This document shows, one piece after another, positions 13,701 through 28,272 of a DNA stretch of 64,000 nucleotides. Under the pieces are notes generated by a model. The model was not told the DNA's origin and did not search any database. It worked only from the letters and a program-made list of their open reading frames with translations. Position numbers and translations under genes: made by a program. Positions within the stretch are counted from its first letter, which is position 1; the number at the start of each line of letters is the position of its first letter. This stretch comes from Croceivirga thetidis (GTDB lineage Bacteria > Bacteroidota > Bacteroidia > Flavobacteriales > Flavobacteriaceae): assembly GCF_012272815.1 (NCBI RefSeq), contig NZ_JAAWWL010000001.1, forward strand, positions 1,489,146 to 1,553,145. The letters run 5' to 3'.

Positions 13701-15779
13701 AAAAGCATCTGGACTATTTACCCAACTTTCTACTACGGTAAAACTAATTTCTGGACAACCCGCGGCGGGACCTTCAGCATTGTATGGTACAACAGTGACA
13801 TAAACAATATCTCCAGGTAAAAATTCATTGGTAAAACTTAGACCAATGACATTGCCTACATCAAAATCGTTAAGAACATCACCATTGAGGACAGCATAGT
13901 TTCTTGCTCCACCTCGTTCAATTTCCAGTGTAATACGATAACCATCAGCATTAGGCGCTGGATTCCATCTAATATCACTATTGGCAGGAGTCATGGTGTC
14001 ACCTGCTGCCGGCATGGTAATTTCAGTACAAAGCACAAAAGAGCAATTGACAGCATCACCGGTTATGTTCCATCCAAAATCATCAATTAAGCGTTGTCTT
14101 TGATTTAGTGCGTCACAATATTGCAAATTAGTTGCCCCTAAATTGACATTGAATTGAACAGTTTGGCTTTCCCAACCTATAAGCGTATTGTCATAATTTT
14201 CTTGAGAGAGACCACTATTGGATAACATGCCATTCATGTTGCCCACGTTTGATATGTTCCAGAGGCCCAAATTTTGGTCAAAACTTGTAGCAGATGCGAA
14301 TGTGCTGCTCATAATGGTGACCCCAATAGTATTCCATCCACTGATATCTTGATTGAATGCCGTTGCTTGTCGAAACATGTTTGCCAAACTGCTTTTGCCA
14401 GTCATATCCCAATTATCCAAGGGTTGGTTGAATGCAGCTGCTCTATAGAACATTGAAGTCACATCAGTTACCGCTGACATGTTCCAATTATTTAATGGTT
14501 GGTTAAATACATCGGTCTCTTGAAACATGCTAGACATATTTGTAACGCTACCAACATTCCAATTATTTATGTTTTGATTAAAGGCCGGGCTATCTTCAAA
14601 CATACCCCGCATGTTTCGCACATTACTTACATCCCAACCGCTGATGTCTTGATTGAATGCAGCATTTTCGCGGAACATATACTCCATATCCTCTACATTA
14701 CTTACATCCCAGTTATCCAAAGGTTGGTTGAAAACTGCACCCCAAATCCAGCCATCGAACATTTCTGACATATCGATCACATTACTGACGTTCCAGTTGT
14801 TTAATGGTTGGTCGAATGTTCTATTCCTATGGAACATCTGAGCCATGTTAGTTACGTTGCTAACATTCCATGTATTAAGAGGTTGGTTAAATTGAGATTC
14901 CCTAAAAGTGGCTTGCATTGAAACAACATTGCTAACGTTCCAGTTATCTAAAGGTTGATTGTATGCGGAACCTTGAAAGGTACCCGTCAAGTCTGTTATG
15001 TTTTCAATATTCCAGTTGTTCAAAGGTTGGTTAAAGCGTCCTGTATATCTAAACGTACCAATCAAATTTGTTGCACTACTGATATCCCAATTATTAATAT
15101 TTTGATTGAAATCGGAAGCTTCTGAAAGAAAGTATTCAAAATTGTCAACTGAAGATACGTTCCAATTATCCAATGGTTCATTAAAATCTCTAGCTCGGTG
15201 AAATGTATAAGACATATCGGTAATACCAGAGGTATTCCAATTATCAAGTGGGCGATTAAAAATTTCACATTCTTGAAATAATCCAGAAATGTCTGTTATG
15301 GTACTTACATCCCAATTATTTAAAATTCCATTGAATGCAGTACATTCTCGAAATGTGTTTTTTAAGCTTGTTACCTGAGACAAATTTGGAGCTTGTATAG
15401 CATCAAAATTCAGATTTTCACATCCATAAAAAGAATTCTCCATTGATTGCCAAATGATGGTGCCCCAATCTAGAATTTCGATTATTTTTTCACGATCACC
15501 GGCGTTGTTAAAATAAATTGATGGGAAATCACCACTTATTTCAACAACATAAATTCCCGGAGCAGCATAGGTATGACCAATGTCGCCGATTACATTAGTG
15601 TCGTTGTTACCATCACCCCAATCAACTGAATAATTGTAGGTAAATGCAGGATTTGTGGGAATGTTAATTTCTGTATTGGCGGAACCTGGTAAATTGGTAT
15701 TCCAGCGAGTGGTAAAATTCTGACCAACTACATTTCCGCATATAAATAACAGGGAAAATAGGAGTATTAGTCTTGTCAT
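7770..15779 (-). CDS. Giant T9SS-exported surface protein: PKD-like, DUF285 (BspA-like) and Fn3-like repeats with a type B sorting domain
   Basis: 2669 residues. In order: signal peptide (1-19, LILLFSLLFICGNVVGQ); a PKD-like domain (about 25-85, YNYSVDWGDGNND and HTYAAPGIYVVEISG); about 15 DUF285 repeats of 25 residues of the pattern FNQPLNNWNVSNVTNMxxMF (about 145-520) closed by a cap with YCDALNQRQ; one Fn3-like domain (about 580-680); a second PKD-like domain (about 690-770); about 20 DUF285 repeats with a second cap (about 825-1380); 12 Fn3-like domains of about 98 residues (about 1380-2572); and a C-terminal gliding-motility type domain (2573-2669, FSPDGDGINDFW, IFNRWGDMVF, GTYFFRLVL, ending QGFLVLKR), which is the T9SS type B sorting signal. 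DUF285/BspA-like repeats are usually adhesive. It probably forms a long surface stalk or adhesin. The next gene encodes PorP/SprF; a TPR/AraC regulator lies upstream. Confidence 0.93.
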   Translation of the reverse strand: MTRLILLFSLLFICGNVVGQNFTTRWNTNLPGSANTEINIPTNPAFTYNYSVDWGDGNNDTNVIGDIGHTYAAPGIYVVEISGDFPSIYFNNAGDREKIIEILDWGTIIWQSMENSFYGCENLNFDAIQAPNLSQVTSLKNTFRECTAFNGILNNWDVSTITDISGLFQECEIFNRPLDNWNTSGITDMSYTFHRARDFNEPLDNWNVSSVDNFEYFLSEASDFNQNINNWDISSATNLIGTFRYTGRFNQPLNNWNIENITDLTGTFQGSAYNQPLDNWNVSNVVSMQATFRESQFNQPLNTWNVSNVTNMAQMFHRNRTFDQPLNNWNVSNVIDMSEMFDGWIWGAVFNQPLDNWDVSNVEDMEYMFRENAAFNQDISGWDVSNVRNMRGMFEDSPAFNQNINNWNVGSVTNMSSMFQETDVFNQPLNNWNMSAVTDVTSMFYRAAAFNQPLDNWDMTGKSSLANMFRQATAFNQDISGWNTIGVTIMSSTFASATSFDQNLGLWNISNVGNMNGMLSNSGLSQENYDNTLIGWESQTVQFNVNLGATNLQYCDALNQRQRLIDDFGWNITGDAVNCSFVLCTEITMPAAGDTMTPANSDIRWNPAPNADGYRITLEIERGGARNYAVLNGDVLNDFDVGNVIGLSFTNEFLPGDIVYVTVVPYNAEGPAAGCPEISFTVVESWVNSPDAFKLTYDTSLLENGSTPANQLKIEANTGFPDYLTYNYSIDWGDGQYDNNVTGQIIHTYLNPGIYTVSIIGDFPAPYHWVSNSDHIKLISIDQWGSQVWQSMQYGFYGCENMVYNATDVPNLTQVENTSNMFSQCYLFNGNIDNWDVSNVTNMLSMFISARIFNQPLNSWNVGQVTNMYGMFGAATEFNQPLDNWDVSQVTNMNFMFAQTQDFNQDLSSWNTSSVNNMGRMFQSSKAFDQPINNWNVGQVTDMSEMFQRAEAFNQPLNNWNTANVQDMSAMFYDAELFNQNINSWNVSSVTDMTQMFYSAPVFNQPLDNWNVSSVTTMNSMFSRAEAFNQNIDSWNVTNVTDMSNMFSFAEVFNEPLNSWEVNSVVNMSSMFRGASAFNQPLENWDVSAVANMSNMFDGTTVFNQPLNTWDVSSVTLMPSMFEAAEAFDQPLNNWDTAVVTNFDSMLKEAIVFNQPLNNWDTGEGQNMASMFYGASAFNQNIAGWNTSFVTTMEEMFREASSFNQSLDAWNVASVNTMQGMFQEATSFNGSINNWNVRAVTTMLDMFNGASSFNQPLNDWRVNGVADMERMFRNASSFNQPLNLWLVGSVSMREMFHDAIAFNQFLGDWNIENVSNMQNMLDDTALTRENYDNTLIAWSEQNLQSGINLGANTLPYCDAVEERQSMITNFGWVFTGDVLDCPVPDCTQLVAPLSGAVEVPVNTNLNWNAVTFAREYRLIVGTTPGGNDIVDNEVVVNDTFYEFAADFAPGVTVYVTMIPSNENGDALGPCIEESFTITATPATVPDCTNLSLPLDGDTDISVDTDISWDIINNADGYRINVGTTPGGTEIINNEDVGNTVTYDFATDLPEDALIYITINPYNEEGTAIGCTEESFRTEFIPVPPICTTLTNPLNGATAVPIDTDISWNAVPDATGYLITIGTTQGGIEIANNIDVGNFTTYDIPTDLQEDRTHYVTIIPYNAVGDALACSEESFRTGNTTLNDPPLCTTLANPLNGTIDVTISTDLSWNPASNTEGYFLTVATTFDGNDILDNFDVGNVTIYDLPTDLPENTEIFVTITPYNSFGSAATCSIESFTTEILATIPNCTTLSNPLANSLNIPVTSDLTWNTIADADGYLLTVGTTAGGNDILDAEDVTGNTFDLPTDLPESTQIFVTIIPYNGVGNATGCVEESFTTETVATIPSCTSLSLPLNAATDVSISTDLTWNTIANADGYLLTVGTTAGGNDILDAEDVTGNTFDLPTDLPENTQIFVTIVPYNGIGNATGCAEESFTTETIATVPVCTNLISPLNAATDVSISTDLTWNTIANADGYLLTVGTTAGGNDILDAEDVTGNTFDLPTDLPENTQIFVTIVPYNGIGNVTGCAEESFTTETVATIPSCTSLSLPLNAATDVSISTDLTWNTIANADGYLLTVGTTAGGIDILDAEDVTGNTFDLPTDLPENTQIFVTIVPYNGIGNATGCIEESFTTETIATVPVCTNLTNPLNATTDVSISTDLTWNTIANADGYLLTVGTTAGANDILDAEDVTGNTFDLPTDLPENTQIFVTIVPYNGIGNAIGCAEESFTTETVATIPSCTSLSLPLNAATDVSISTDLTWNALTNADGYFLSVRDGASSAYNILDNLDVGNLTTFDLPADLPANTDIYVLIIPYNGQGNAIGCAEEFFVTGEIPETIPECTVVIDPLNMAIDVPIDSEISWSSIENATGYRITIGTAPGLGDIVNNEDVGNITVFEFSENLPENAEIFVLIIPYNTIGDALSCDVESFITGSAPLVLPECTMLTFPENGAEDVTIETDISWTLVENATGYILSIGTSMGAGDIIENLDVGQSNTYDITEDLPYEQQIFINIIPYNDDGFTVGCQEQSFTTEVQEELESQFGFSPDGDGINDFWTINGIEQYPTNVVMIFNRWGDMVFKTEGYDNNSNVFTGNANQMTGMGAGQLPEGTYFFRLVLPEEHNLKTTQGFLVLKR
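8064..11640 (-). repeat. Array of 12 Fn3-like domain repeats inside the giant surface protein gene
   Basis: Twelve consecutive units of about 98 codons (about 294 bp). Each begins near a CTxLxxPLN motif, contains DLTWN and DGYxLTVGTT, and ends GNAxGCxEESFTTE. Outer units are diverged while the middle six are almost identical at the DNA level. Every unit carries one Cys near its start and one near its end. Confidence 0.9.
8860..10430 (-). repeat. Higher-order 588-bp tandem repeat (paired Fn3-like units)
   Basis: The plus-strand marker cagctgggga occurs at 8953, 9541 and 10129, exactly 588 bases apart, which is two 294-bp units. The alternate units carry a different boundary sequence (protein IPSCTSLSLPLN against VPVCTNLxxPLN), so the array reads A-B-A-B-A. 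This points to recent amplification of a two-domain block. Confidence 0.88.
11820..13305 (-). repeat. DUF285 repeat block 2 (about 20 units)
   Basis: About 20 in-frame 75-bp units encode the 25-residue pattern FNQPLxxWNVSxVTxMxxMF. The block ends with a cap containing NYDNTLIAW and LPYCDAVEERQSM that is nearly the same as the cap of block 1. Confidence 0.85.
14225..15345 (-). repeat. DUF285 repeat block 1 (about 15 units)
   Basis: About 15 in-frame 75-bp units of the same 25-residue pattern, more divergent than block 2. One unit is lengthened by a short insertion (FDGWIWGAV). The cap reads NYDNTLIGW then LQYCDALNQRQRL. Confidence 0.85.
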
Positions 15780-17670: not shown

Positions 17671-18957
17671 TTAAGCATTCCAAATTACCTTGAACTTATT
17701 TTCAATTTCATTTAGTTTCAAATTTCCCAAGCTCCCTTCATGACTGTGTTCAATATCTTTATTAGGTTTAAATGTGCCATTTTCAATGGCCGTTCCCATG
17801 GTCTTGTAAGCATCTCGAAAGGGCATACCATTTTTCACCATCTCATTTAAGGTATCAACACTAAATAAGTAATCGTATTTTGGGTCATTCAAGATGTTTT
17901 GGTTTACCCGAATTTCCTTTAAGCTAAAAGTCATCATTTCCAAACAGGCCTTCATATCTTGTAATGCAGGCACAATACTTTCCTTAACCAATTGCAGATC
18001 ACGATGGTAGCCACTTGGCAGGTTATTGGTTATCAAGGTCAATTGGTTGGGTACCGCTTGAATCTTGTTGCACTTGGCACGGATGAGTTCGAACACATCT
18101 GGATTTTTTTTGTGTGGCATAATGCTGCTACCGGTAGTCAACTCGTTCGGAAAGGATATAAAATCAAAATTCTGGCTCATGTATAGCGTTATGTCCATCG
18201 CCAATTTAGAGAGTGTTGCTGCGATACTTGATATTCCAAAAGCAGTGGCTTTTTCGACCTTGCCACGCCCCATTTGAGCAGCCACAACATTGTATTTTAG
18301 GGTTTCAAAACCCAATTCTTCGGTTGTAAATGTTCTATCAATAGGGAATGAGCTTCCATAACCGGCAGCGCTTCCCAAGGGGTTTTGGTCTGCAACTTTA
18401 TAGGCAGCTTGTACAAAATAAAGGTCGTCGACCAGACTTTCGGCATAGGCCGAAAACCAAAGTCCGAAAGAAGATGGCATTGCAATCTGTAAATGGGTAT
18501 AGCCTGGCAATAATACTTGTTGATGTTTTTCAGCCAGTTCTATTAGCAAGTCAAATAGTGCTTTAACCTGTGATTTGATTTCATTTAACTCCTCTTTTAA
18601 GAACAATTGCATGGCCACTAAAACTTGGTCATTTCGAGAGCGGGCCGAATGTATTTTTTTTCCAATATCTCCAAGCCTTTCTGTCAACAAAAACTCTATT
18701 TTAGAATGCATGTCCTCAAAATCATCTTCAATGGTGAATGTTCCCTGTTCGATGGTGCCTAAGATGAACTTAAGTTCTTTTTCCAATGCTATTCCTTCGT
18801 CTTCAGAAATCAATCCAACTTTTGCTAACATTTTAGCGTGTGCGGTTGAAGCAATAACATCGTATTTCGCTAAAAGCAAATCGAGTTCACGATCATTGCC
18901 TACAGTAAAATGGTCTATTTTTTTGTCAGTGCTAAAACCTTTGTCCCAGAGTTTCAT
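17671..18957 (-). CDS. argH: Argininosuccinate lyase
   Basis: Splits argininosuccinate into arginine and fumarate, the final step of arginine synthesis. I start at ATG 18957 (MKLWDKGFSTDKKIDHFTVG), giving 428 residues, the usual size; an open frame extends further upstream into argE, but that extension has no family likeness. Seen motifs include HSARSRNDQVLVAMQLF, the lid GSSIMPHKKNPDVFELIRAK, which is the fumarase/lyase signature with the catalytic Ser, and LPGYTHLQIAMPSSFG. It is the last gene of the arginine operon and begins 67 bases after argE. Confidence 0.96.
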   Translation of the reverse strand: MKLWDKGFSTDKKIDHFTVGNDRELDLLLAKYDVIASTAHAKMLAKVGLISEDEGIALEKELKFILGTIEQGTFTIEDDFEDMHSKIEFLLTERLGDIGKKIHSARSRNDQVLVAMQLFLKEELNEIKSQVKALFDLLIELAEKHQQVLLPGYTHLQIAMPSSFGLWFSAYAESLVDDLYFVQAAYKVADQNPLGSAAGYGSSFPIDRTFTTEELGFETLKYNVVAAQMGRGKVEKATAFGISSIAATLSKLAMDITLYMSQNFDFISFPNELTTGSSIMPHKKNPDVFELIRAKCNKIQAVPNQLTLITNNLPSGYHRDLQLVKESIVPALQDMKACLEMMTFSLKEIRVNQNILNDPKYDYLFSVDTLNEMVKNGMPFRDAYKTMGTAIENGTFKPNKDIEHSHEGSLGNLKLNEIENKFKVIWNA

Positions 18958-19024
18958 GTTTTCAAGTTCAATTTCAACATCAAGTTCAAATACATTTTTT
19001 GAACTTGATACTTGGGTTTGTTTT

Positions 19025-20098
19025 TTATTTTTTGAAGAAGCCTTCCAAGATTTTGATGTAAAGATCAACTCCTTCCAAAACTTCTTTCACATAGATAAAT
19101 TCGTTTGCGGAGTGAGATCTTGGGCTATATCCTGGCCCCAATTTTAAGGATTGGCAACTCAATTTTGCTTGGTCTGACAGCGTAGGAGAACCATAAGTTT
19201 CCCTACCTAGTGCAATTCCCGATTGTACCAAAGGATGGTTCATGGCAATCGAAGAACTGTCTTTATTCAATGACCTCGGAACCAATTCGCAAGGAGCTTC
19301 CCTTTGTAAGATATCGTTGATCTCGGTATTGGAATAACAATCATTTACCCTAGTATCGATTACTAGATCTACATGTGCTGGTACTACATTATGTTGACTA
19401 CCGGCACTTATTTGGGTTACCGTAATTTTAACGGGTCCCAGAACATCAGAAACTTTTTCAAAGGCATAATTTTCGAACCAGTCCAATACCTTGGGTAATT
19501 TATAAATGGCACTGTCATTATTTGGGTGGGCCGCATGCGATGGTGTTCCAGATATTTTTCCTTCGTATACAATCAGCCCCTTTTCGGCAATAGCCAATTG
19601 CATTTCTGTCGGTTCTCCAACTATGGCCACATCAATTTCAGGTAGAATTGGCAATAAGGCGGAAAGACTTTTGGCTCCCGCATCTTCTTCCTCCGCAGTG
19701 GCTGCCATGATGATGTTATGACTCAAATCTTCTCGTTCGTAAAAATGAACAAAAGTGGCCAATAATGAACATAATGCCCCACCTGCATCATTGCTGCCGA
19801 GACCATATAATTTACCGTCCTCAATATGTGGATGAAAAGGGTCTTTGGTATAAGCCGAATTTGGTTCCACAGTATCGTGGTGCGAATTCAGTAAAAGATT
19901 GGGTTTGTTTTCATCATAATATTTATTGAAGGCGTAAACATTATTGTATTGTCTTTGTGTGACCACACCGTGCTTTTGCAAAAAATCCTCGATTGCCGCA
20001 GCAGTGCCATCTTCTTTTTCAGAAAGTGATGGTATTGAAATTAGTTGTTGCAATAAGGTTAAGGCTTCTTGAGCCAATGTTTCTGTTGTCAATGTCAT
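19025..20098 (-). CDS. argE: Acylornithine/acylcitrulline deacylase (M20 peptidase, ArgE-type)
   Basis: 357 residues of the M20 zinc peptidase family. Metal-site motifs are SHHDTV (His73-x-Asp75), GLGSNDAGGA (Asp104) and the catalytic Glu pair in TAEEEDAG (136-138). In Bacteroidota operons with an N-acylornithine carbamoyltransferase, this enzyme should release the acyl group from N-acylcitrulline rather than from N-acetylornithine; whether the acyl group is acetyl or succinyl is not visible. The start overlaps the argB stop by four bases. Confidence 0.9.
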   Translation of the reverse strand: MTLTTETLAQEALTLLQQLISIPSLSEKEDGTAAAIEDFLQKHGVVTQRQYNNVYAFNKYYDENKPNLLLNSHHDTVEPNSAYTKDPFHPHIEDGKLYGLGSNDAGGALCSLLATFVHFYEREDLSHNIIMAATAEEEDAGAKSLSALLPILPEIDVAIVGEPTEMQLAIAEKGLIVYEGKISGTPSHAAHPNNDSAIYKLPKVLDWFENYAFEKVSDVLGPVKITVTQISAGSQHNVVPAHVDLVIDTRVNDCYSNTEINDILQREAPCELVPRSLNKDSSSIAMNHPLVQSGIALGRETYGSPTLSDQAKLSCQSLKLGPGYSPRSHSANEFIYVKEVLEGVDLYIKILEGFFKK

Positions 20099-20874
20099 AA
20101 AACTAGACTTGTATAGTTTGTAGTTGAATTTTCAAACAATCCCAGATTACCGATTCGTACTTCACGTACCCCATTTTTCAAAGCTTCAAAACAGTTGTGC
20201 AATTTGGGGAGCATGCCTGCTGAGATGACACCTTCGTCAACAAGTTTGGTGTAGGAACTGGAATCAATATTTTTAATCACAGATGATTTATCATTTATGT
20301 CTTTTAAAACTCCATTCAATTCAAAACAATAGTTCAAGTTGGTTTGAAAAGAAGAACTTAATCCAATTGCCAGGGTAGCAGCAATTGTGTCTGCATTGGT
20401 ATTTAGTAATTGTCCTTTTTGGTCGTGCGTCAATGCACAGAATACCGGAGTTAGCCCTAAATTCAAAAGGTTGCACAGCATTTTGGCATCAATACCTTCA
20501 ACATCACCAGCAAAGCCGTAATCAATTTTAGTAATAGGTCGCTTGTGCGCATGAATACTGTTGGCATCCGCACCGCTCATTCCAATCGCGTTGTTTCCTA
20601 AAGCTTGGAGTTTAGCCACAATATTTTTGTTTACCAACCCACCATAAACCATCGTGACAACCTCTAAGGTTGCGGAATCCGTGATTCTTCTTCCATTGAC
20701 CATTCTGGGTTTGATTCCAAGTTTTGGAAGGAGTTCACTGGCTTTTTTGCCCCCTCCATGTACTAAAATTTTGTGACCTTCAAGATTTGAAAATAAGTAT
20801 AATAATTGCTTAAGTTCTTCTTCATTTTCGATGATGTTACCACCGATTTTAAATATGTTGAGCTTATCTCCCAT
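20095..20874 (-). CDS. argB: N-acylglutamate (acetylglutamate) kinase
   Basis: Phosphorylates the gamma-carboxyl of N-acetyl- or N-succinyl-glutamate. 259 residues of the amino acid kinase fold: KIGGNII at the N-terminus, VHGGGKKASELLPKLG with the glycine loop, MVNGRRITD, and NTNADTIAATLA. It is short, like the E. coli type, and lacks the N-terminal helix that goes with arginine feedback in other bacteria. That fits control at the leader rather than allosteric control, though this is inference. Its start overlaps the small membrane ORF by 11 bases and its stop overlaps argE by four. Confidence 0.94.
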   Translation of the reverse strand: MGDKLNIFKIGGNIIENEEELKQLLYLFSNLEGHKILVHGGGKKASELLPKLGIKPRMVNGRRITDSATLEVVTMVYGGLVNKNIVAKLQALGNNAIGMSGADANSIHAHKRPITKIDYGFAGDVEGIDAKMLCNLLNLGLTPVFCALTHDQKGQLLNTNADTIAATLAIGLSSSFQTNLNYCFELNGVLKDINDKSSVIKNIDSSSYTKLVDEGVISAGMLPKLHNCFEALKNGVREVRIGNLGLFENSTTNYTSLVL

Positions 20875-21058
20875 TCCCAGGTGTTTTTCTTATCGAGACA
20901 ATCATCGAAAGAATTAGAAATACCATAGACGTTGGCAACAAAGCATCTTGCCACCTCAAATTATTGTAATCCAATTCCAGTAAATGAAATACAATTATTA
21001 GAGCGGCTAAAGCTATTAGGGCATACCTAAATTTATTTTTTGTCTGCATGGAGTTCAA
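20864..21058 (-). CDS. Small two-helix membrane protein in the arginine operon
   Basis: 64 residues, or 61 if the second Met (codon at 21049) is used. Two hydrophobic segments, about residues 12-28 and 39-55, are joined by a short loop with LDYNNLRWQD, and the tail is basic. It overlaps both neighbours (26 bases with argF', 11 with argB), which supports real translation, as removing it would leave an unusual gap in an otherwise overlapping operon. I recognise no family. A role in the inner membrane is all that can be said. Confidence 0.6.
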   Translation of the reverse strand: MNSMQTKNKFRYALIALAALIIVFHLLELDYNNLRWQDALLPTSMVFLILSMIVSIRKTPGNGR

Positions 21059-21998
21059 GCTGTGATTCTTTTAAGATTCGCTTCAAGACGAGCTGTGCAG
21101 CCCAAGTTCTATTATCAGCTTGATCAATAACCAAGCTTTGGTTACTGTCAAGTACTGCATCTTCAACGACAACATTTCTTCGAACGGGTAGACAATGCAT
21201 GAAATTAGCCCCTCCCAGTTTTTCTGACGTCATCATCCAATCTCTGTTTTGGTGTAAGACTCGTCCATAATCTCGGTAACTACTCCAGTTTTTCACGTAT
21301 ACAAAGTTCGCATTTTCAAGTGCTTTTTCTTGGTCATTCACAATTCTGCAACCTTCTGTGATTTTAGGGTTCAAATCATAGCCTACTGGATTTGTGATCA
21401 CAAATTCGGCGTCTTGCAATTTCATCATGTTTATGAATGAATTTGCCACGGCATGTGGCAACGCTTTGGGGTGTGGAGCCCAAGACAATACCACTTTTGG
21501 TCTTTCAACAGTTTTATGCTCTTCAAGTGTAATGGCATCTGCCAACGCCTGTAATGGATGGGCTACAGAGCTTTCCATATTTACAACTGGTATGGTGGCA
21601 TGTTCCAAAAAGCCATTTAGTACAACTTCTGCTTCATCTTGTTCTCTGTCAATTAATCCGGCAAAGGCACGAATAGCAACGATGTCGGCATACTGTGAAA
21701 CGACTTTTGCAGCTTCTCGAATATGTTCCGATTTTCCGGCATCCATCACCACGCCATCATTATATTCCAATTGCCAACCTTCAGAACCAAAATTCATCAC
21801 CATGGTATTCAAACCAAGATTGGAAGCTGCTTTTTGAGTGCTCAATCTTGTGCGCAAACTATTGTTGAAGAACAACAAGCAAATAGTCTTTCTTTTACCC
21901 AATTGATCAAAACTGAAAGGATCAGATTTTAATTCAATGCCTTCTTTTACCGCTTCTTGAAGGTTTTTTAAGTCTGATATGGATAAATAATGTTTCAT
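21033..21998 (-). CDS. argF': N-acyl-L-ornithine carbamoyltransferase (acetyl- or succinyl-ornithine type)
   Basis: 321 residues of the carbamoyltransferase family, transferring carbamoyl phosphate to N-acylornithine. The carbamoyl-phosphate loop is FFNNSLRTRLSTQKAA (43-58), with SLRTR instead of the STRTR of ordinary ornithine carbamoyltransferase, and the second domain has MHCLPVRRNVVVEDAV. These are the marks of the Bacteroidota/Xanthomonas N-acylornithine branch. The residue before EHIREA is Ser90. From memory, this is the position that is Pro in the succinyl enzyme and Glu in the acetyl enzyme, so the acyl specificity is unsettled. The start overlaps the argD stop by four bases. Confidence 0.9.
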   Translation of the reverse strand: MKHYLSISDLKNLQEAVKEGIELKSDPFSFDQLGKRKTICLLFFNNSLRTRLSTQKAASNLGLNTMVMNFGSEGWQLEYNDGVVMDAGKSEHIREAAKVVSQYADIVAIRAFAGLIDREQDEAEVVLNGFLEHATIPVVNMESSVAHPLQALADAITLEEHKTVERPKVVLSWAPHPKALPHAVANSFINMMKLQDAEFVITNPVGYDLNPKITEGCRIVNDQEKALENANFVYVKNWSSYRDYGRVLHQNRDWMMTSEKLGGANFMHCLPVRRNVVVEDAVLDSNQSLVIDQADNRTWAAQLVLKRILKESQLELHADKK

Positions 21999-23122
21999 GC
22001 CAGTTCTCTTTTTAATCCTTCAAAAAACAAATCAATCTGCTCCTTGGTGATGTTCAATGCGGGTAAAAACCGAAGCAGGTTTTTATTCGCCGAGCCGCCA
22101 GTAAACATATGTTGATTATAAATCAATTTTTTTCGTAAATCACTCACTTCAAAATCAAATTCAAGACCTAACATAAGGCCTCTGCCTTTTAATTTTTTTA
22201 TAGAAGGTATTTCCGAAGCTTTTTCTTTAAAGTATGTTTCTAGTATTGCTGCATTATCAAGTAAATTTTCCTTTTCCAAGACTTCTAAAACAGACAATGT
22301 TGCCATGCAAGCCAGATGGTTTCCGCCAAATGTAGTTCCCAGCTGTCCATACCACGGTTTGAATTTTTGATGTAGTAAAACCCCACCGACAGGAAATCCG
22401 TTGCCCATACCTTTGGCGATGGAAATTATATCGGGTTGAATTCCGTGATGTTGAAATGCGAAGAATTTTCCACTTCTCCCAAAACCTGATTGCACTTCGT
22501 CGGCAATCAAGACAACCTCGTATTCCTCACATTTTTTTGCTATAAACTGGTAAAAATCCGTAGTAGGTTCATCCAAACCTCCAACTCCTTGGATGGCTTC
22601 TAAAATTACGGCACAATGAGCACCCTTAGAAATACATTTTTCAAATGCCTCAAAATCATTTAGAGGCAGAAAATCTACTTCTTGTTGGGCATTCAACGGA
22701 GCAACAATCTTTGGGTTGTCTGTAGCTACAACCGCAGCAGAAGTACGTCCATGAAAACTATTTTTAAAGGCTATTACCTTTGATTTTCCGGTATGGAAAG
22801 AAGCCATTTTTAAAGCATTTTCATTGGCTTCGGCCCCTGAACTGCACATGAATAGTTGGTAACCCTTACAATCCGAAGCGGAACCAAGTTTCTCCCCTAA
22901 TTCTACTTGTAATGGATTTTTAATGGAGTTACTATAAAAAGCCATTTTTTGGAGTTGCTCTGTCATCCGATTTACATAATGAGGATGCGAATGTCCTATG
23001 GAAATCACCGCATGCCCGCCATAAAAATCTAGGTAGGATTGGCCTTGTTCGTCCGTTACCTCAATTCCTTTTGCAGAGACTGGAGTTACATCATAAAGCG
23101 GATATACATCGAATAGTTTCAT
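21995..23122 (-). CDS. argD: N-acylornithine aminotransferase
   Basis: 375-residue class III PLP aminotransferase. It converts N-acylglutamate semialdehyde to N-acylornithine with glutamate. Seen are the PLP-phosphate motif CSSGAEANENALKMA, FHGRTSAAVV, the ring-binding Asp in LIADEVQSGFGRSGKF (Asp208) and the Schiff-base lysine Lys237 in ISIAKGMGNGFPVGG. Length and motifs are normal. The gene lies between proC and argF', overlapping each by four bases, so its place in arginine synthesis is firm. Confidence 0.94.
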   Translation of the reverse strand: MKLFDVYPLYDVTPVSAKGIEVTDEQGQSYLDFYGGHAVISIGHSHPHYVNRMTEQLQKMAFYSNSIKNPLQVELGEKLGSASDCKGYQLFMCSSGAEANENALKMASFHTGKSKVIAFKNSFHGRTSAAVVATDNPKIVAPLNAQQEVDFLPLNDFEAFEKCISKGAHCAVILEAIQGVGGLDEPTTDFYQFIAKKCEEYEVVLIADEVQSGFGRSGKFFAFQHHGIQPDIISIAKGMGNGFPVGGVLLHQKFKPWYGQLGTTFGGNHLACMATLSVLEVLEKENLLDNAAILETYFKEKASEIPSIKKLKGRGLMLGLEFDFEVSDLRKKLIYNQHMFTGGSANKNLLRFLPALNITKEQIDLFFEGLKRELA

Positions 23123-23913
23123 GCTTCTCGTATTTCACTGATTTTCTTGTAGGAAGTAACGATGCCTTGAATCAACGACGAACTCAAGCCTTGATGTTCC
23201 ATTTCATTCAACCCTTCAATAGTACATCCTTTTGGAGTGGTTACCCTGTCAATTTCCTGTTCTGGGTGGCTGCCTGATTCTACCAAGAGACTCGCAGCAC
23301 CGTTGCAGGTATGCATTGCCAATTCTTGGGCCTCTTTTGCATCAAAACCCAATTGAATGGCACCTTGGGTAGTTGCGCGAATCAAGCGCATCCAAAAAGC
23401 AATGCCACTGGCACAGATTACTGTAGCTGCCTGCATCTGTTCTTCAGGAATTTCCATTGAATGCCCCATTCGATTAAAAATGGCCTTGGCCAAATCAATA
23501 CGTTTTTTACCCAATCCATTACTACAAATGCAGGTCATGCTCTTGCCAACCGAAATGGCCGTATTAGGCATGCTTCTCACAATGTATTTGTCATTGCCGA
23601 TAACGGATTCCATTCTAGCGATACTAAAACCTGTGATGGTACTGATAACCACATGGTTTTCGGTCAACAGGTCTTTGATGTCAAAGAGAATGGCTTCAAA
23701 ATGACCTGGTTGAACTGCAAAAATGAGAATATCGGAATTCTTAACTGCTTCTGCGTTATCTGCGGTAACCGTGACGTTACCATACTTCTCGAATTCCTTG
23801 ATTTCTGAAGTATTTCGTTTGGTCAGGTACATTGTTGTGGCTCCATTGCTATGCAAAATTCCTTTTGCAATGGATAGTCCTAGATTACCTGCTCCTATAA
23901 TGGCTATTTTCAT
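23119..23913 (-). CDS. proC: Pyrroline-5-carboxylate reductase
   Basis: 264 residues. An N-terminal Rossmann motif IAIIGAGNLGLSIAKGIL binds NAD(P)H. The C-terminal helical domain carries the family stretch VTTPKGCTIEGLNEME. It makes proline from pyrroline-5-carboxylate. The gene lies inside the arginine operon: its stop overlaps the argD start by four bases and argC ends 9 bases upstream of its start. Co-expression would link proline output to arginine demand, for instance through ornithine-derived pyrroline-5-carboxylate. The enzyme itself looks intact. Confidence 0.93.
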   Translation of the reverse strand: MKIAIIGAGNLGLSIAKGILHSNGATTMYLTKRNTSEIKEFEKYGNVTVTADNAEAVKNSDILIFAVQPGHFEAILFDIKDLLTENHVVISTITGFSIARMESVIGNDKYIVRSMPNTAISVGKSMTCICSNGLGKKRIDLAKAIFNRMGHSMEIPEEQMQAATVICASGIAFWMRLIRATTQGAIQLGFDAKEAQELAMHTCNGAASLLVESGSHPEQEIDRVTTPKGCTIEGLNEMEHQGLSSSLIQGIVTSYKKISEIREA

Positions 23914-23922
23914 TGTTCCTTT

Positions 23923-24897
23923 TTAAAATGCGATTGATTTCAACTGTAATCCCAAATCTTCTTCCAAACCAAAAACTAGATTCATATTCTGAACCGCTTG
24001 GCCCGAGGCTCCCTTTAATAGATTGTCAATGGCTGAGGTCACCAGTAACACATCGTCATGTTTATGTAAATGGATATGGCAGTTATTGGTATTCACAACT
24101 TGTTTTAGATGGATGGGTTCGTCAGAAATGTGTGTGAATTGCGCATGTTTATAAAAGGTTTCGTACATCTGGATTGCCTCCTCAAAATTTCCTTCAAACT
24201 TGGTATAAGCCGTTGCAAGTATACCTCGGCTAAAGTTGCCCCGATTTGGGAGAAAGTGAAGTTTGCCAATTTTATTTCCGAAAGAATTCAGGCTTTCTCC
24301 AATTTCCCCTAGATGTTGATGGGTGAAAGGTTTATACCAACTAACATTGTTGTTTCGCCAACTAAAATGGGTTGTAGCAGAAGGTTTAATTCCAGCTCCC
24401 GTACTTCCTGTAACGGCATTAATATGAACCGCTTCTTGTAACAAATTGTGCTGCGCAAGCGGAAGTAACGCTAACTGAATGGCCGTAGCAAAACAACCTG
24501 GATTTGCGATTGCCTTAGCATTTTCAATTTTGTTTTTGTTCAGTTCAGGAAGCCCATATATGAATTGATTGGATTCAAATTTGGAATCGTCCTGTAACCT
24601 GAAATCGTTACTGAGGTCAATCAATACGGTTTCTTCTGAAAAATGGTTTTCCTTCAGGAACTGCGTTGAATTGCCATGACCGAGGCACAAGAAAACGACG
24701 GACACATCGGCATTGATATCCCCAGTAAATTTCAGATTAGTTTGTCCCAATAAGTCTCCATGGGCCGAGGATAATGATTTTCCGGCCCTTGTAGTGCTGT
24801 AGACAAAATCCAGTTCTACGGCTTGATGATTCAATAGTAGCCGAATAAGTTCTCCACCGGTATAACCTGAACCACCGATAATTCCTGCTTTAATCAT
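23923..24897 (-). CDS. argC: N-acyl-gamma-glutamyl-phosphate reductase
   Basis: 324 residues. It reduces N-acylglutamyl phosphate to the semialdehyde. The N-terminal dinucleotide motif is GIIGGSGYTGGELIRLLL; the catalytic cysteine is Cys135 in NPGCFATAIQLALLPL. The C-terminal half has the expected NRGNFSRGILATAY and FGLEEDLGL stretches. It overlaps argG by eight bases at its start. Confidence 0.95.
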   Translation of the reverse strand: MIKAGIIGGSGYTGGELIRLLLNHQAVELDFVYSTTRAGKSLSSAHGDLLGQTNLKFTGDINADVSVVFLCLGHGNSTQFLKENHFSEETVLIDLSNDFRLQDDSKFESNQFIYGLPELNKNKIENAKAIANPGCFATAIQLALLPLAQHNLLQEAVHINAVTGSTGAGIKPSATTHFSWRNNNVSWYKPFTHQHLGEIGESLNSFGNKIGKLHFLPNRGNFSRGILATAYTKFEGNFEEAIQMYETFYKHAQFTHISDEPIHLKQVVNTNNCHIHLHKHDDVLLVTSAIDNLLKGASGQAVQNMNLVFGLEEDLGLQLKSIAF

Positions 24898-26080
24898 TGT
24901 TTTGATTTACGTGATTCGCAATTTTACCAGGATTGGAAAGAATCTTTATAAAACCCTTTGCATCATCTGCGGTCCAGCCTTTGTTCATTTCACCATAGCT
25001 TCCAAAAGAGGCGTTCATAAGATCATTTTCGGATGAAATTCCATCCAGTCGAAACTGAAAAGGATATAGACTTACAAAAACATCACCCGAAACATTTTTC
25101 TGGGTGTCCGTTAAAAAAGCCTCAATGTTCCTCATGACTTCATCTAGATAGTTTCCTTCGTGTAATAGCATACCATAAAAATTGCCTAATTGTTCTTTTT
25201 GATACTGTTGCCATTTGCTTAAGGTATGCTTCTCAAGTAAATGATGTGCCTTGATTATAATGAGCGGGGCGGCAGCTTCAAATCCCACACGACCCTTAAT
25301 CCCGATTATCGTATCACCAACGTGGATGTCACGGCCGATTGCGTATTTTGAAGCTAAAGCCTCTAACTTCTCAATATTGAAGACCGGGTCGTTTTTTTCA
25401 CCATCCAATGCAACAAGTTCTCCATTTTCAAAGGTCAGCTTTAGTTGTAAAGGTTCCTTTTGCTGTAATTGACTGGGGTAGGCCGAGTCAGGTAAGGGAA
25501 GGTTGGATGTCAAGGTTTCATCGCCCCCGACAGAGGTGCCCCATAACCCTCGATTGATGGAATATTTTGCTTTTTCCCAAGAATAATCGACTCCATTTTC
25601 CTGGAGATATTTAATTTCTTCCTCACGGGCCAATTTGTTATCTCGAATAGGTGTAATGATTTCGATTTCTGGGGCCAATGTTTGAAATATCATATCAAAT
25701 CGTACTTGATCGTTACCGGCCCCAGTACTGCCATGGGCGATATACTTTGCCCCAACTTTCTTGGCATGATTGACAATCTCAACAGCTTGTACAATCCGCT
25801 CTGCACTTACCGAAAGTGGATAGGTGTTGTTACGCAATACATTGCCATAGATAAGATATTTGACGACTTTTTGATAAAAATTTTGTACCGCATCAATAGA
25901 GGTATAGGAGCTGGCTCCAAGAGCTATTGCCTTTTCTTCAATCTGCTTTATTTCTTGTTGGGAAAATCCACCAGTATTTACGCTGACCGCATGTACTTCA
26001 TATCCATGTTCTTTGGATAGGTTCATGGCACAATATGAGGTGTCTAATCCACCGCTATAGGCTAAGACTAATTTTTTCAT
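24890..26080 (-). CDS. argG: Argininosuccinate synthase
   Basis: 396 residues. It condenses citrulline and aspartate with ATP. The ATP pyrophosphatase loop is LAYSGGLDTSYCA at the N-terminus. Also seen are AHGSTGAGNDQVRFD and SINRGLWGTSVGGDETL, both family signatures. Its start overlaps the GNAT gene stop by four bases, and its end overlaps argC. Standard length; no anomaly. Confidence 0.96.
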   Translation of the reverse strand: MKKLVLAYSGGLDTSYCAMNLSKEHGYEVHAVSVNTGGFSQQEIKQIEEKAIALGASSYTSIDAVQNFYQKVVKYLIYGNVLRNNTYPLSVSAERIVQAVEIVNHAKKVGAKYIAHGSTGAGNDQVRFDMIFQTLAPEIEIITPIRDNKLAREEEIKYLQENGVDYSWEKAKYSINRGLWGTSVGGDETLTSNLPLPDSAYPSQLQQKEPLQLKLTFENGELVALDGEKNDPVFNIEKLEALASKYAIGRDIHVGDTIIGIKGRVGFEAAAPLIIIKAHHLLEKHTLSKWQQYQKEQLGNFYGMLLHEGNYLDEVMRNIEAFLTDTQKNVSGDVFVSLYPFQFRLDGISSENDLMNASFGSYGEMNKGWTADDAKGFIKILSNPGKIANHVNQNND

Positions 26081-26694
26081 TTTACTTTTTTCTTGAGAAA
26101 GAGTGTTTCTTTAATACTTTTTAACCGCTTAAATGCTTTTCCGTTTAATTTGTTTTTTGCTTGGTTTTCTTTTGAATTGGGATCGTATAGCATTCCCGTG
26201 CACAGGCACATTTTGCGTTCGGTTCTGGTTAGAATATCAAAATTCTTGCAGGTTTGGCAGCCTTTCCAGAAATCTGGGTCGTCGGTCAATTCTGAAAAGG
26301 TCACAGGTTTATAGCCCAGTTCGTAATTCATTTTCATGACAGGTAATCCAGTAGTGATTCCAAAGATTTTAGCTTCAGGAAATTTCTCTTTTGACAATTC
26401 AAAAATTCGCTTCTTTATCTTTTTTGCTAGGCCTTTACCTCGAAAATCAGGATGTACTATTAATCCAGAATTGGCCACAAATCCTTTGTTTCCCCAAACT
26501 TCGATATAACAGAAGCCAGCAAATGTTTCCCCCTCTAAAGCAATAATGGCATTACCATTCTGTAACCGTTTGATTATATATTCAGGGGTGCGCTGTGCAA
26601 TACCCGTTCCACGAACCTTTGCTGATTCGGTAATGGTATCGCTTATGATTTGAGCGTATTTAAAATGTGATTCGTTAGCAACTAAGAGTTCCAT
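26077..26694 (-). CDS. GNAT-family acyltransferase heading the arginine operon; candidate N-acylglutamate synthase
   Basis: 205 residues. The GNAT core is visible, with the acyl-CoA loop VHPDFRGKGLAKKIKKRIF. The C-terminal region is unusual, with a Cys cluster (GCQTCKNFDI followed by MCLCTGMLYD) and a very basic tail. No classical argA or argJ is in the operon, and this gene is first, so it is the natural candidate to acylate glutamate (acetyl or succinyl). I recall that GNAT proteins in Bacteroidota arginine operons have been tied to this step, but have not verified it for this family. The ATG is at 26694. The Cys cluster may bind zinc. Confidence 0.75.
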   Translation of the reverse strand: MELLVANESHFKYAQIISDTITESAKVRGTGIAQRTPEYIIKRLQNGNAIIALEGETFAGFCYIEVWGNKGFVANSGLIVHPDFRGKGLAKKIKKRIFELSKEKFPEAKIFGITTGLPVMKMNYELGYKPVTFSELTDDPDFWKGCQTCKNFDILTRTERKMCLCTGMLYDPNSKENQAKNKLNGKAFKRLKSIKETLFLKKKVK

Positions 26695-26876
26695 TGCTGA
26701 CTTTTAGATTAAAACAAAAATTGAAAACTTGGTTTGAAACGGGAATGGACTCACCTAATCCCAAAGATTGATGTGCACCCTTACGGGCGACGACGTGGAG
26801 CGAACGGACGTGCTGGAGCAAGAGTGCTCGTAGAAGTGAATATGTAATCTTGTTCGTTCATGTTGGGGTAAATGTA
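26695..26876 (-). promoter_or_regulatory. Arginine operon leader region (candidate attenuator)
   Basis: The transcribed leader should hold the 26-codon Arg-rich ORF (minus 26861-26781), a small hairpin over its stop codon (CGCCC, GTAA, GGGTG, with one G-U pair), and further down an imperfect stem formed by 26741-26762 (GGGA/TCCC plus GG/CC), followed by a U-rich run templated by the A-rich plus strand around 26711-26732. This layout fits ribosome-dependent attenuation by arginine. The hairpins are weak when read by eye; only the leader ORF is strong. Confidence 0.55.
26781..26861 (-). CDS. Arginine-rich leader peptide of the arg operon
   Basis: An ATG at 26861 opens a 26-codon frame ending at TAA (26783-26781). 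The peptide starts MNEQDYIFTSTSTLA and ends PARPFAPRRRP, so four of its last nine codons are Arg, three of them consecutive (CGT CGT CGC). It stands alone between a promoter-like sequence and the first gene of a ten-gene arginine operon. The short GC-rich patch it makes is out of character with the surrounding spacer and is explained by the Arg, Pro and Ala codons. Leader peptides rich in the pathway's product are the classic sensor of attenuation. I know of no annotation for this ORF. Confidence 0.75.
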   Translation of the reverse strand: MNEQDYIFTSTSTLAPARPFAPRRRP

Positions 26877-26908
26877 CAAATTATCTTAAACCTCAAACAT
26901 TTTGTCAA
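26877..26908 (-). promoter_or_regulatory. Candidate promoter of the arg operon
   Basis: On the minus strand TTG (26908-26906) is followed after 22 bases by TAATTTG (26883-26877), one base shorter than the TAnnTTTG consensus. It ends 15 bases before the leader ATG and overlaps the stop codon of the preceding gene. Confidence 0.45.
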
Positions 26909-28272
26909 TTGTTTTTACGAATTACGGCAAGAATGTTATGATTTTTCATGATTTCATATCCTAAGAACCCTAATACCAAAATATATTCAATCGCTAAGAG
27001 CCATAGGTTTTCCTTGAAATCAGGTTGGGAATAGGCATAATAACTTAAAACGACCAGACCCGACCATAATAAGGTGAATCGGTAGTTGGTAAAAAGACTA
27101 AGGCCAACAAGAAAAACAATATACCAAGGATGAACAGTTGATGATAAAAAATAATAGGAACTCAGTAATACAAGCATTGATAGCAGAATTGATTGCGTTG
27201 ATTTTTTATCCCTAAATACCATCAATAAGAATGCAATTAAGATGGTTAGTAAAGGCACAATATCACCGTAATCTTTAACTACTTCCCAGGGTTTTTGCTC
27301 GTAATGTTCGACAGCTACAGTCTTTACCAGATTGTAAAAACCTGCATTAAATTCAAAATTTGAAAACCACAGCCTCACGGTTTGGACATAATGTGTTGCA
27401 AACTCCGATGAATAAAATGGTATCAAAAATAAGATGGAACATACGGTTATTGCCACATAAAAAAAAGTACTCTTCTTAAAGCCCAAAAGGGGAAGAAACA
27501 ATGGTAGGAAGAGAATAGGTACCAGTTTCAACATAATTGAGGCCGCATAGATTGGGGCTGCAAGAAGATATTTTCCTTTTGAAATCAAATGCACGGCCCA
27601 AATGAACAGAAAGAACATTACACCTTCAAAGTGAAGGTTTCCAGTTAGCTCGATTATGATTAAGGGGTTTAAGAAATACCAAAAAATCAGATGTGGACTT
27701 TGGTTTAGGTTTTGCAGTAACCTTCTCCCAAAATAAACCGTTCCAATGTCTGAGAGAATTATAATTACCCGCATCCAGATGACTGAACCCAAAATACTGC
27801 CCATGCCTAAAAAGCTACTAATGCTAAAAATGAGCTGGTTTATGGGCGGATAGTTGCTGTAATGTTTTGCACTTAAACTTCCCATTCCGTCATATAATTC
27901 TTGGGAATTGGCAATGATTATAGTTGATTTTTCAATGATTTGGTTTGGGGTGTAGAGGTATGGATTGATTCCTTGGTTTATCAATTCACCATCCCAAATA
28001 AAGCGATAGAAGTCTTGTGAAAGGTTAGGTATGGCAATTAGAAAAACCAATCGGAATAGAATCCCGGTTACCAAAAGAAACTTGAAGTTCCATTTTTCAA
28101 ATTGAATGATTTTGTAAAGCAGAATAAAGAGACCAGCATACAAGGCAAGTAACTTCAGAAAATCTTCTCGTTCCAAATCATAGGCAAAAACGGTATAAAG
28201 AAGTAGGTTTGCCAGTACAATTAAAGATGGGTATTTATGTAACTTAATATATCGTTGGGCAATTTTCTCCAA
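26905..28272 (-). CDS. Multi-pass GT-C-type glycosyltransferase (mannosyltransferase-like)
   Basis: 455 residues with at least ten hydrophobic helices. The early loop SQDFYRFIWDGELINQGINP resembles the Asp-containing loop of polyprenol-phosphate-sugar-dependent GT-C transferases (YRYxWDGxxxxxGxNPY), and the later stretch STVHPWYIVFLVGL is also typical of this group. The frame starts with TTG at 28272; no ATG occurs before the conserved loop, so a non-ATG start is needed. It follows the DUF6090 gene by 10 bases. A dolichyl-phosphate-mannose-synthase-like gene lies in the same run and could make its lipid-linked sugar donor. Confidence 0.75.
   Translation of the reverse strand: MEKIAQRYIKLHKYPSLIVLANLLLYTVFAYDLEREDFLKLLALYAGLFILLYKIIQFEKWNFKFLLVTGILFRLVFLIAIPNLSQDFYRFIWDGELINQGINPYLYTPNQIIEKSTIIIANSQELYDGMGSLSAKHYSNYPPINQLIFSISSFLGMGSILGSVIWMRVIIILSDIGTVYFGRRLLQNLNQSPHLIFWYFLNPLIIIELTGNLHFEGVMFFLFIWAVHLISKGKYLLAAPIYAASIMLKLVPILFLPLFLPLLGFKKSTFFYVAITVCSILFLIPFYSSEFATHYVQTVRLWFSNFEFNAGFYNLVKTVAVEHYEQKPWEVVKDYGDIVPLLTILIAFLLMVFRDKKSTQSILLSMLVLLSSYYFLSSTVHPWYIVFLVGLSLFTNYRFTLLWSGLVVLSYYAYSQPDFKENLWLLAIEYILVLGFLGYEIMKNHNILAVIRKNN

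Follow-up and report, generated by a model that had tools for sequence, protein, structure and literature searches.

The nearest experimental precedent for the element described here is the orf34-speF region of Salmonella, in which two consecutive Arg codons of a short leader open reading frame (ORF) sense arginine and Rho is involved (PMC6386406). Our subject is a leader ORF ahead of an operon of arginine-synthesis genes in Croceivirga thetidis (Flavobacteriaceae), within a stretch of 64,000 nucleotides (nt) (contig NZ_JAAWWL010000001.1, positions 1,489,146 to 1,553,145) that is called the window below. Like orf34 (SpeFL), for which pausing at the Arg codons and Rho-dependent termination are described, it is a short ORF with consecutive Arg codons before a gene linked to arginine or ornithine (PMC6386406). 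As described there, orf34 differs in being gammaproteobacterial, in preceding a polyamine gene, and in sensing through Arg codons 12 and 13 within a DUF2618 core; the Croceivirga leader has its Arg codons at the end of the ORF, where they form a hairpin, and precedes a biosynthetic operon. Judging from comparison with its relatives, we think it likely that this leader is an arginine-responsive element in which the leader ribosome senses arginine.

Other described systems share part of this design. The classical his, trp and leu attenuators have, after a promoter, a leader ORF rich in codons for the product, with a hairpin overlapping the end of the ORF; unlike in the his and trp attenuators, neither an intrinsic terminator nor a conserved competing hairpin was found for the Croceivirga leader. 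TnaC arrests with tryptophan, and SpeFL with ornithine, at the stop codon. The Croceivirga leader resembles peptides of the TnaC type in that a Pro precedes the stop, residues close to the C-terminus are conserved and an intrinsic terminator is lacking; unlike TnaC, it precedes biosynthetic genes, and for it arrest and a ligand are hypothetical. Staphylococcus aureus rbfL is likewise an upstream ORF that senses arginine limitation, but it acts on a biofilm regulator gene, whose ribosome binding site it occludes, and its Arg codons are AGA and AGG, with the rare AGG in focus (PMC13009471). Within the Flavobacteriaceae, a 2021 transcriptome of Flavobacterium psychrophilum reported structured 5′ regions and leader peptides before amino-acid operons, with strong clues for leader peptide attenuation stated in one general sentence, and the part of it at hand names no arginine leader (PMC9723704). 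A Bacteroides thetaiotaomicron study has short ORFs reminiscent of leader peptides, and PMC8632094 has other upstream ORF motifs, none flavobacterial in the portion available. A first-pass annotation of the window, made from its sequence alone, had called attenuation of an arginine operon by a leader peptide, to its knowledge, undescribed in Flavobacteriaceae. That claim has to be narrowed: no description of an arginine leader in Bacteroidota was found in the open-licence literature, as far as its texts were available, and the attenuation survey of Lopatovskaya et al. 2010 (cited in PMC4833913) might bear on the point, but leader attenuation in flavobacteria had already been reported in general terms (PMC9723704).

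The leader ORF has 26 codons (MNEQDYIFTSTSTLAPARPFAPRRRP-stop; 26781–26861, with the ATG at 26861 and TAA at 26783–26781) and lies, like its hairpins, the promoter motifs and the operon, on the minus strand. Direct reading confirmed the start, the stop and the ending given in the first-pass annotation: the last nine residues are RPFAPRRRP with four Arg, of which the final three are consecutive (CGT CGT CGC, 26787–26795) and stand directly before Pro-stop. The same annotation had proposed that in relatives the start codon and the Arg-rich ending would be conserved while the other codons drift; both were found to be kept, and codons 2–14 drift.

Relatives were collected in several ways. A draw around the window's own genome gave a GNAT acetyltransferase match, the first operon gene, in 36 of 60 genomes, and 30 loci were retained. 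The set of named public contigs is the best 80 of 374 matches. The same-family set holds 181 distinct loci, 100 found through operon genes (GNAT or argG) and 81 through a covariance model of the element or its matches. Because the latter 81 carry the element by selection, the fair figure for conservation comes from the 100 gene-found loci: 98 have the loop motif of hairpin P2 (described below), 96 a hairpin with a UNNGY loop, 95 a Pro-stop and 95 an Arg before that Pro. The corresponding numbers in the 81 element-found loci are 80, 71, 61 and 60. Overall, the P2 loop motif occurs in 178 of the 181 upstream regions, and a Pro-stop lies 22–27 nt upstream of the GG of P2 in 156 of these 178; this count requires Pro before the stop, so that Pro at codon −1 of the 156 leaders is given by construction. 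An ATG is found 9–45 codons before the stop in 137 of the 156, and lengths peak at 26 (47 leaders) and 27 codons (42 leaders). All of the best 80 named loci have Pro-stop and the P2 motif, 76 have RRRP as their final four residues, and 79 have an in-frame ATG, the single one without it (L045) having a leader that runs off the contig end.

In GC-rich DNA, CGN codons are favoured whatever the frame, and an Arg-rich ORF might thus arise by chance in such a patch. Conservation refutes this explanation, which is scarcely credible here. Before GNAT, an ORF with an ATG and at least three Arg in its last 10 codons was found in 188 of 268 distinct loci (81 of which had been fetched via the element itself), whereas the reverse strand gave 12 of 268 and dinucleotide shuffles predict 7.75; in the 100 gene-found same-family loci the test gave 92, against 7 on the reverse strand.

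Of the 156 same-family Pro-stop leaders, 155 have Arg at codon −2, 148 at codon −3 and 112 at codon −4. The codons used are nearly always CGC or CGT, which make up 576 of the 587 Arg codons in the last nine positions (CGC 314, CGT 262, CGA 7, AGG 4), versus 43 of 172 in 14 genes of the window (AGA 53, CGA 42, CGT 29, AGG 23, CGC 14, CGG 11). The first-pass annotation took the Arg codons alone to be the signal, and in this it fell short, since eight preceding codons are conserved as protein and two RNA hairpins are conserved as well. The selection test behind the former statement used only leaders of exactly 26 or 27 codons and pairs 60–95% identical, related pairs not being independent. At codons 15–22 the ratio of nonsynonymous to synonymous differences (pN/pS) is 0.29 in frame and 1.21 and 3.0 in the other frames for 26-codon leaders (47 sequences, 841 pairs), and 0.39 in frame and 0.94 and 2.45 in the others for 27-codon leaders (43 sequences, 313 pairs). 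At codons 2–14 it is 0.86 (26 codons) and 0.95 (27 codons) in frame and 0.59–0.72 in the other frames. By this measure codons 15–22 are conserved as protein, and in the leader frame only, whereas codons 2–14 show no sign of protein constraint and the N-terminal half drifts. In the wider set of 156 leaders only R-R-P is well kept.

A serious rival to codon sensing is that the leader encodes a nascent-chain arrest peptide (consensus APVRPFxPRRRP-stop), which would bind free arginine in the exit tunnel or stall by itself at the stop, so that the ribosome before P2 sets the output. Codons 15–22, kept as protein under free synonymous drift, are what such a peptide would leave behind, and the Pro before the stop in 156 of 178 loci and the stop-to-P2 distance of 22–27 nt point the same way. 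So does f37, a family from another class of the phylum, where 2 of 11 leaders end in IPVRPIPRRR-stop and 7 of 11, those two included, in IPRRR-stop. Distant Flavobacteriaceae, however, keep little beyond R-R-P, other families end in PRA, RV, RI or RRR, and the Pro lies within hairpin P1 and may reflect a constraint on the RNA; moreover, arrest would have to switch a biosynthetic operon off, the opposite of TnaC. We regard an arrest peptide as unlikely, if well worth keeping in view, and return to codon sensing below.

Two RNA hairpins are associated with the end of the ORF. The first, P1 (CGCCC-GTAA-GGGTG, 26776–26789), is made by the leader itself: its 5′ arm joins the last Arg codon to the first two bases of the Pro codon, its 3′ arm comes from the bases after the stop, and the stop codon lies in its loop. 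A linker (26763–26775) leads to the second, P2 (26741–26762), which has a variable stem with a bulged A, GG/CC closing pairs and the pentaloop TGAGT (UGNGU; 26749–26753). A G-poor spacer (26695–26740) extends from P2 to operon gene 1. The covariance model was built from 24 loci, and 100 sequences were aligned to it; in this alignment, which is fitted to the model, 94.1% of the cells are paired and 89 cells carry two-sided changes, compared with a shuffle mean of 23.4. P2 contributes two-sided changes in seven of its eight pairs, with 93.6% of its cells paired. P1 is paired in 95.0% of cells and hardly varies; its outermost pair is unpaired in 21 sequences, and one pair shows a double change from C-G to A-U in three. 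Because the alignment is fitted to the model, we also made a fixed-loop hairpin scan that is independent of the fit, and in 167 of 181 loci it found a UNNGY-loop hairpin of 7 or more pairs, while each of seven control loop classes reached at most 5 of 181. All 100 aligned sequences have UGNG in the P2 loop (UGAGU 70, UGUGU 21, UGCGU 6, UGCGC 2, UGUGG 1). The stop-to-P2 GG distance is 22–27 nt in 156 of 156 Pro-stop leaders, although 12–32 nt was allowed. At the level of comparison, then, the element consists of the ORF, its Arg-Pro-stop ending with CGY codons, P1, a covarying P2 at a near-fixed distance, and linkage to the operon.

Searched against Rfam at the gathering cut-off, the whole window gave one tRNA and no match to the leader element; at E up to 5, the region 26650–26960 gave a single match, on the other strand, of 12.3 bits against a cut-off of 75. 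Several further explanations of the hairpins were rejected. P2 as an anti-Shine-Dalgarno binding site, through its loop AGGUGAGUCC, was discarded because the corresponding loops of families f2, f7 and f22 (UACGU, UCCGU, UACGC) are not Shine-Dalgarno-like. P2 as a DNA operator does not fit arms that vary with compensation around a fixed loop. P2 as an intrinsic terminator was dropped since no terminator-like site was found in this region of the window and, by eye, no T run follows P2 in the aligned rows. A hairpin GAGC..GCUC within the ORF of the window is seen by eye in only some close relatives and is absent from the consensus fold.

The conservation of both hairpins, with strong covariation in P2, would also be expected of a purely structural RNA, binding a protein or a ligand (e.g. 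an arginine aptamer), in which the ORF is incidental. A P1-like hairpin is retained in 21 of 22 loci without Pro-stop, a count made without a control; the endings of some of these loci read by eye as RRTFVRA, RRTSVRV and RRRPGRM. Such an RNA would leave unexplained why codon −3, which lies outside P1, encodes Arg in 148 of 156 leaders with a varying third base, and why conservation at codons 15–22 is specific to one frame. Outside the family, furthermore, P2-like hairpins (8 of 77 loci) are much rarer than the Arg-rich ORF (38 of 77). We consider this explanation highly improbable.

The covariance model finds one strong match in the window's own genome (E 5.4e-19; the next is 0.13). Among 249 Flavobacteriaceae genomes it matches at 0.05 in 159 and below 1e-6 in 150; among 345 genomes of the phylum it matches in 40, and all 15 matches below 1e-6 are in Flavobacteriaceae. 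By these searches there is one strong copy of the element per genome. Second copies in 17 genomes all have E values of 7e-4 or weaker, and the 13 of these 17 loci that were read show no arg gene; 15 loci read from the weak matches of the phylum draw (L165–L179, one of the same family) also show none, and both groups were taken as chance. In the window's own genome, the weak model matches (L119–L122) are not leader-like by eye, and the other AGGTGNGTCC sites (6 of 7) lack a flanking stem by eye. The gene argG lies just downstream in 59 of 59 strong-match loci checked (L118, L123–L164, L180–L195), with GNAT between in 58. In L135 a different, longer acetyltransferase (about 1730–2365) replaces GNAT while the leader, P1 and P2 are kept, and L253 has a longer acetyltransferase upstream of argG that by eye is similar to that of L135. 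Among family members without the element and outside the genus g147, 15 of 18 checked have no argG; in g147, which also lacks the element, argG is present in 7 of 7 checked. In L255, a same-family genome missed by the model, an Arg leader, P1 and a hairpin with a UCCGU loop can be made out by eye.

Outside the family only loci with a GNAT match were read, which excluded 1 of 20 and 12 of 40. An Arg-rich leader ORF precedes the same gene in 38 of 77 such loci; on the reverse strand the count is 1 of 77. By family, the leaders are found in 11 of 11 loci of f37 (e.g. MQNTLAHRIDFIPVRPIPRRR), 5 of 6 of f22, 4 of 6 of f17, 3 of 4 of f19, 4 of 4 of f15, 3 of 4 of f9, 2 of 2 of f7, 2 of 3 of f2 and 4 of 6 of f18, one of the last (L347) being seemingly accidental. 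P2-like hairpins with UACGU, UCCGU or UACGC loops shortly after the leader stop were found in f2 (3/3), f7 (2/2) and f22 (3/6), making 8 of 87 loci (77 non-family and 10 of g147), and six control loop classes gave at most 2 of 87 each. Three f18 loci (L318, L320, L324) show by eye a different structure at this place: a long hairpin, CUGAYAGG...CCURUCAG, whose 5′ arm includes the leader stop and in which there is a compensating change. In three f16 loci from 0.6 Mb genomes (L282–L284) the GNAT match falls within an open frame of about 590–630 amino acids, which suggests a GNAT-ArgG fusion.

The arginine repressor ArgR (PF01316) was found in 0 of 60 related genomes, including that of the window, while 9 of 14 control genomes had it, E. 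coli, B. subtilis and Bacteroides ihuae among them. In other families ArgR was confined, among 47 genomes, to the f25 pair; both matches lie within the region upstream of argG (L322, L350), and by the ATG test neither locus has an Arg leader. Lineages with neither ArgR nor leader exist, e.g. f5 and f36, and for this reason the absence of ArgR alone does not predict a leader.

A sensor of arginine supply is the best reading of the leader because its start and its Arg-rich ending are kept while codons 2–14 drift, and because a promoter motif lies upstream. In the mechanism we propose, a ribosome would translate the leader close behind RNA polymerase. When charged tRNA-Arg for the CGY codons is short, the ribosome would stall on the Arg run, stay on the RNA and hold P1 open; when arginine is plentiful, it would finish at the UAA and leave, P1 would close, and expression of the operon would drop. 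Given a ribosome footprint of the usual size, the near-fixed stop-to-P2 distance would place P2 a few nt ahead of a ribosome at the stop codon, where it may be the conserved partner of the stalled ribosome, of RNA polymerase or of a bound protein. In the window 13 nt and then a U-G step come after P1, an arrangement that, by analogy alone, resembles the pause hairpin of the his and trp leaders.

The output is the least certain step. It may be termination by Rho, either in the G-poor spacer or where P1 makes RNA polymerase pause. Rho is favoured by two results, the failure to find an intrinsic terminator and the equal openness of the gene 1 start in all modelled states; we put it forward tentatively, with slightly less than even confidence. 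The spacer after P2 has on average 6.5% G and 18.3% C, with C exceeding G in 125 of 132 relatives; 25 control upstream regions of the window have 15.0% G and 17.8% C, with C exceeding G in 17. Since G is low but C is not raised, the spacer is weak evidence for Rho. Output could instead lie in translational control, with translation of the leader, or arrest in it, altering access to the start of gene 1 without transcription termination. An arginine-sensing upstream ORF that acts on translation is known in S. aureus rbfL (PMC13009471), and the distance from the P2 GG to the GNAT start is fairly constant (median 65 nt, range 57–111, n = 140). Against this, the modelled GNAT start region is equally unpaired in three ribosome states, at 0.568 with no ribosome, 0.566 with a stalled one and 0.578 with one at the stop (66 of 132 sequences), and we judge translational control improbable.

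A number of results weigh against an arginine sensor of the kind proposed. The link from a stalled ribosome to an output is not visible in the sequence, because there is no terminator (0 terminator-like sites in 26600–27000) and no conserved alternative pairing: no competing hairpin was found, and the consensus fold of 85 of 98 leaders (those with GTAAGGGT, minus eight divergent ones) contains P1 and P2 only. The predicted fold of the window leader taken alone is no stabler than shuffles (z 0.19). With a ribosome modelled at the stop or over the Arg codons, P1 is lost and the rest of the fold is little altered (66 of 132 sequences), the mean probability of P2 being 0.705 when free, 0.651 with a stalled ribosome and 0.742 with a ribosome at the stop. 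Of the 178 family loci that have the P2 motif, 22 lack Pro-stop, and 19 of 156 Pro-stop leaders have no ATG 9–45 codons upstream. The protein-level conservation seen at codons 15–22 exceeds what a pure codon counter would need. By the ATG test, finally, the operon stands without an Arg leader in f5 (0/13) and in genus g147 (0/10), the ArgR-bearing f25 has none (0/2), and no Arg leaders were found in f38 (0/5), f16 (0/3), f36 (0/3), f23 (0/2), f41 (0/2) and f3 (0/1); by eye, Arg-rich endings that lack an ATG or fall short in the number of Arg are present in some leader-negative groups.

The leaderless operons include those at f5 loci L285–L288, L291–L293, L295, L297, L299–L301 and L304 and at L257 and L258 of g147. 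Inverted repeats resembling AGATAAT/ATTATCTT are seen by eye near the operon start in several leaderless loci of f5 and g147, and are perhaps sites of another regulator.

On balance the interpretation as a sensor is well supported by comparison, while textbook attenuation is only a candidate. The first-pass annotation had combined the two, with ribosomes stalling at CGT CGT CGC and so turning on the genes downstream; the sensing of arginine supply stands as the best reading, and attenuation of the textbook form, for which neither an intrinsic terminator nor a conserved competing structure was found, is not supported. A broader proposal is a phylum-old arginine element of Bacteroidota, composed of the Arg leader, its self-made P1 and, in several families, a UNNGY P2 that would act with the stalled ribosome to switch the operon without an intrinsic terminator; the element is present in lineages where ArgR was not found, and both genomes with ArgR lacked it as far as examined. 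The boldest version would have the nascent peptide read arginine directly, as a new bacterial arrest peptide. We offer this as a speculation that we would not at present expect to hold in full.

The leader lies in a spacer (26695–26904) between the upstream gene, which ends at 26905, and the GNAT gene, operon gene 1 (26077–26694; PF00583). Then follow argG, argC, proC, argD, argF-like, a small membrane protein gene, argB, argE-like and argH (17671–26080), named from Pfam domains and gene order, argF-like denoting a transcarbamylase and argE-like a peptidase. The spacer was described in the first-pass annotation as leading into ten overlapping arginine genes. There are indeed ten genes, but nine are arginine/proline genes and, although neighbours mostly overlap, argC and proC are separated by a gap of 9 nt. 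The tenth encodes a small membrane protein of about 62 amino acids (20864–21049) and overlaps the end of argF and the start of argB. Downstream of the operon is a predicted protein of 2669 amino acids, very long and repetitive (7770–15779).

Bacteroidota promoters have the consensus TAnnTTTG. A putative −7 element of this type, TACATTTA (26869–26876), has its 3′ end 7 nt before the leader ATG. In relatives with Pro-stop and ATG, TANNTTT[G/A] ends 7–8 nt before the ATG in 77 of 137, and none was found within 45 nt upstream of the ATG in 45 of 137. An alternative, sigma-70-like promoter TTGACA-17-GATAAT (26880–26908) matches 11 of 12 consensus positions; by itself it is weak evidence, since shuffles of the region average 1.5 promoter-like sites. 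The promoter-like sequence noted earlier ahead of the ORF is thus present, as motifs, and transcription probably starts a few nt before the leader ATG.

What is new beyond the first-pass annotation is the conserved RNA hairpins and the constraint at the peptide level. The element is now defined concretely, by a covariance model, a key codon set and two hairpins, of which P2 is a conserved RNA structure with no match in Rfam. Bacteroidota mostly do without Shine-Dalgarno initiation, and, as far as the literature searched shows, the element addresses a gap, the control of arginine synthesis in those of their lineages in which no ArgR was found. Leader ORFs of this kind fall below the size that gene callers usually report, so further sensors may be hidden in these genomes.
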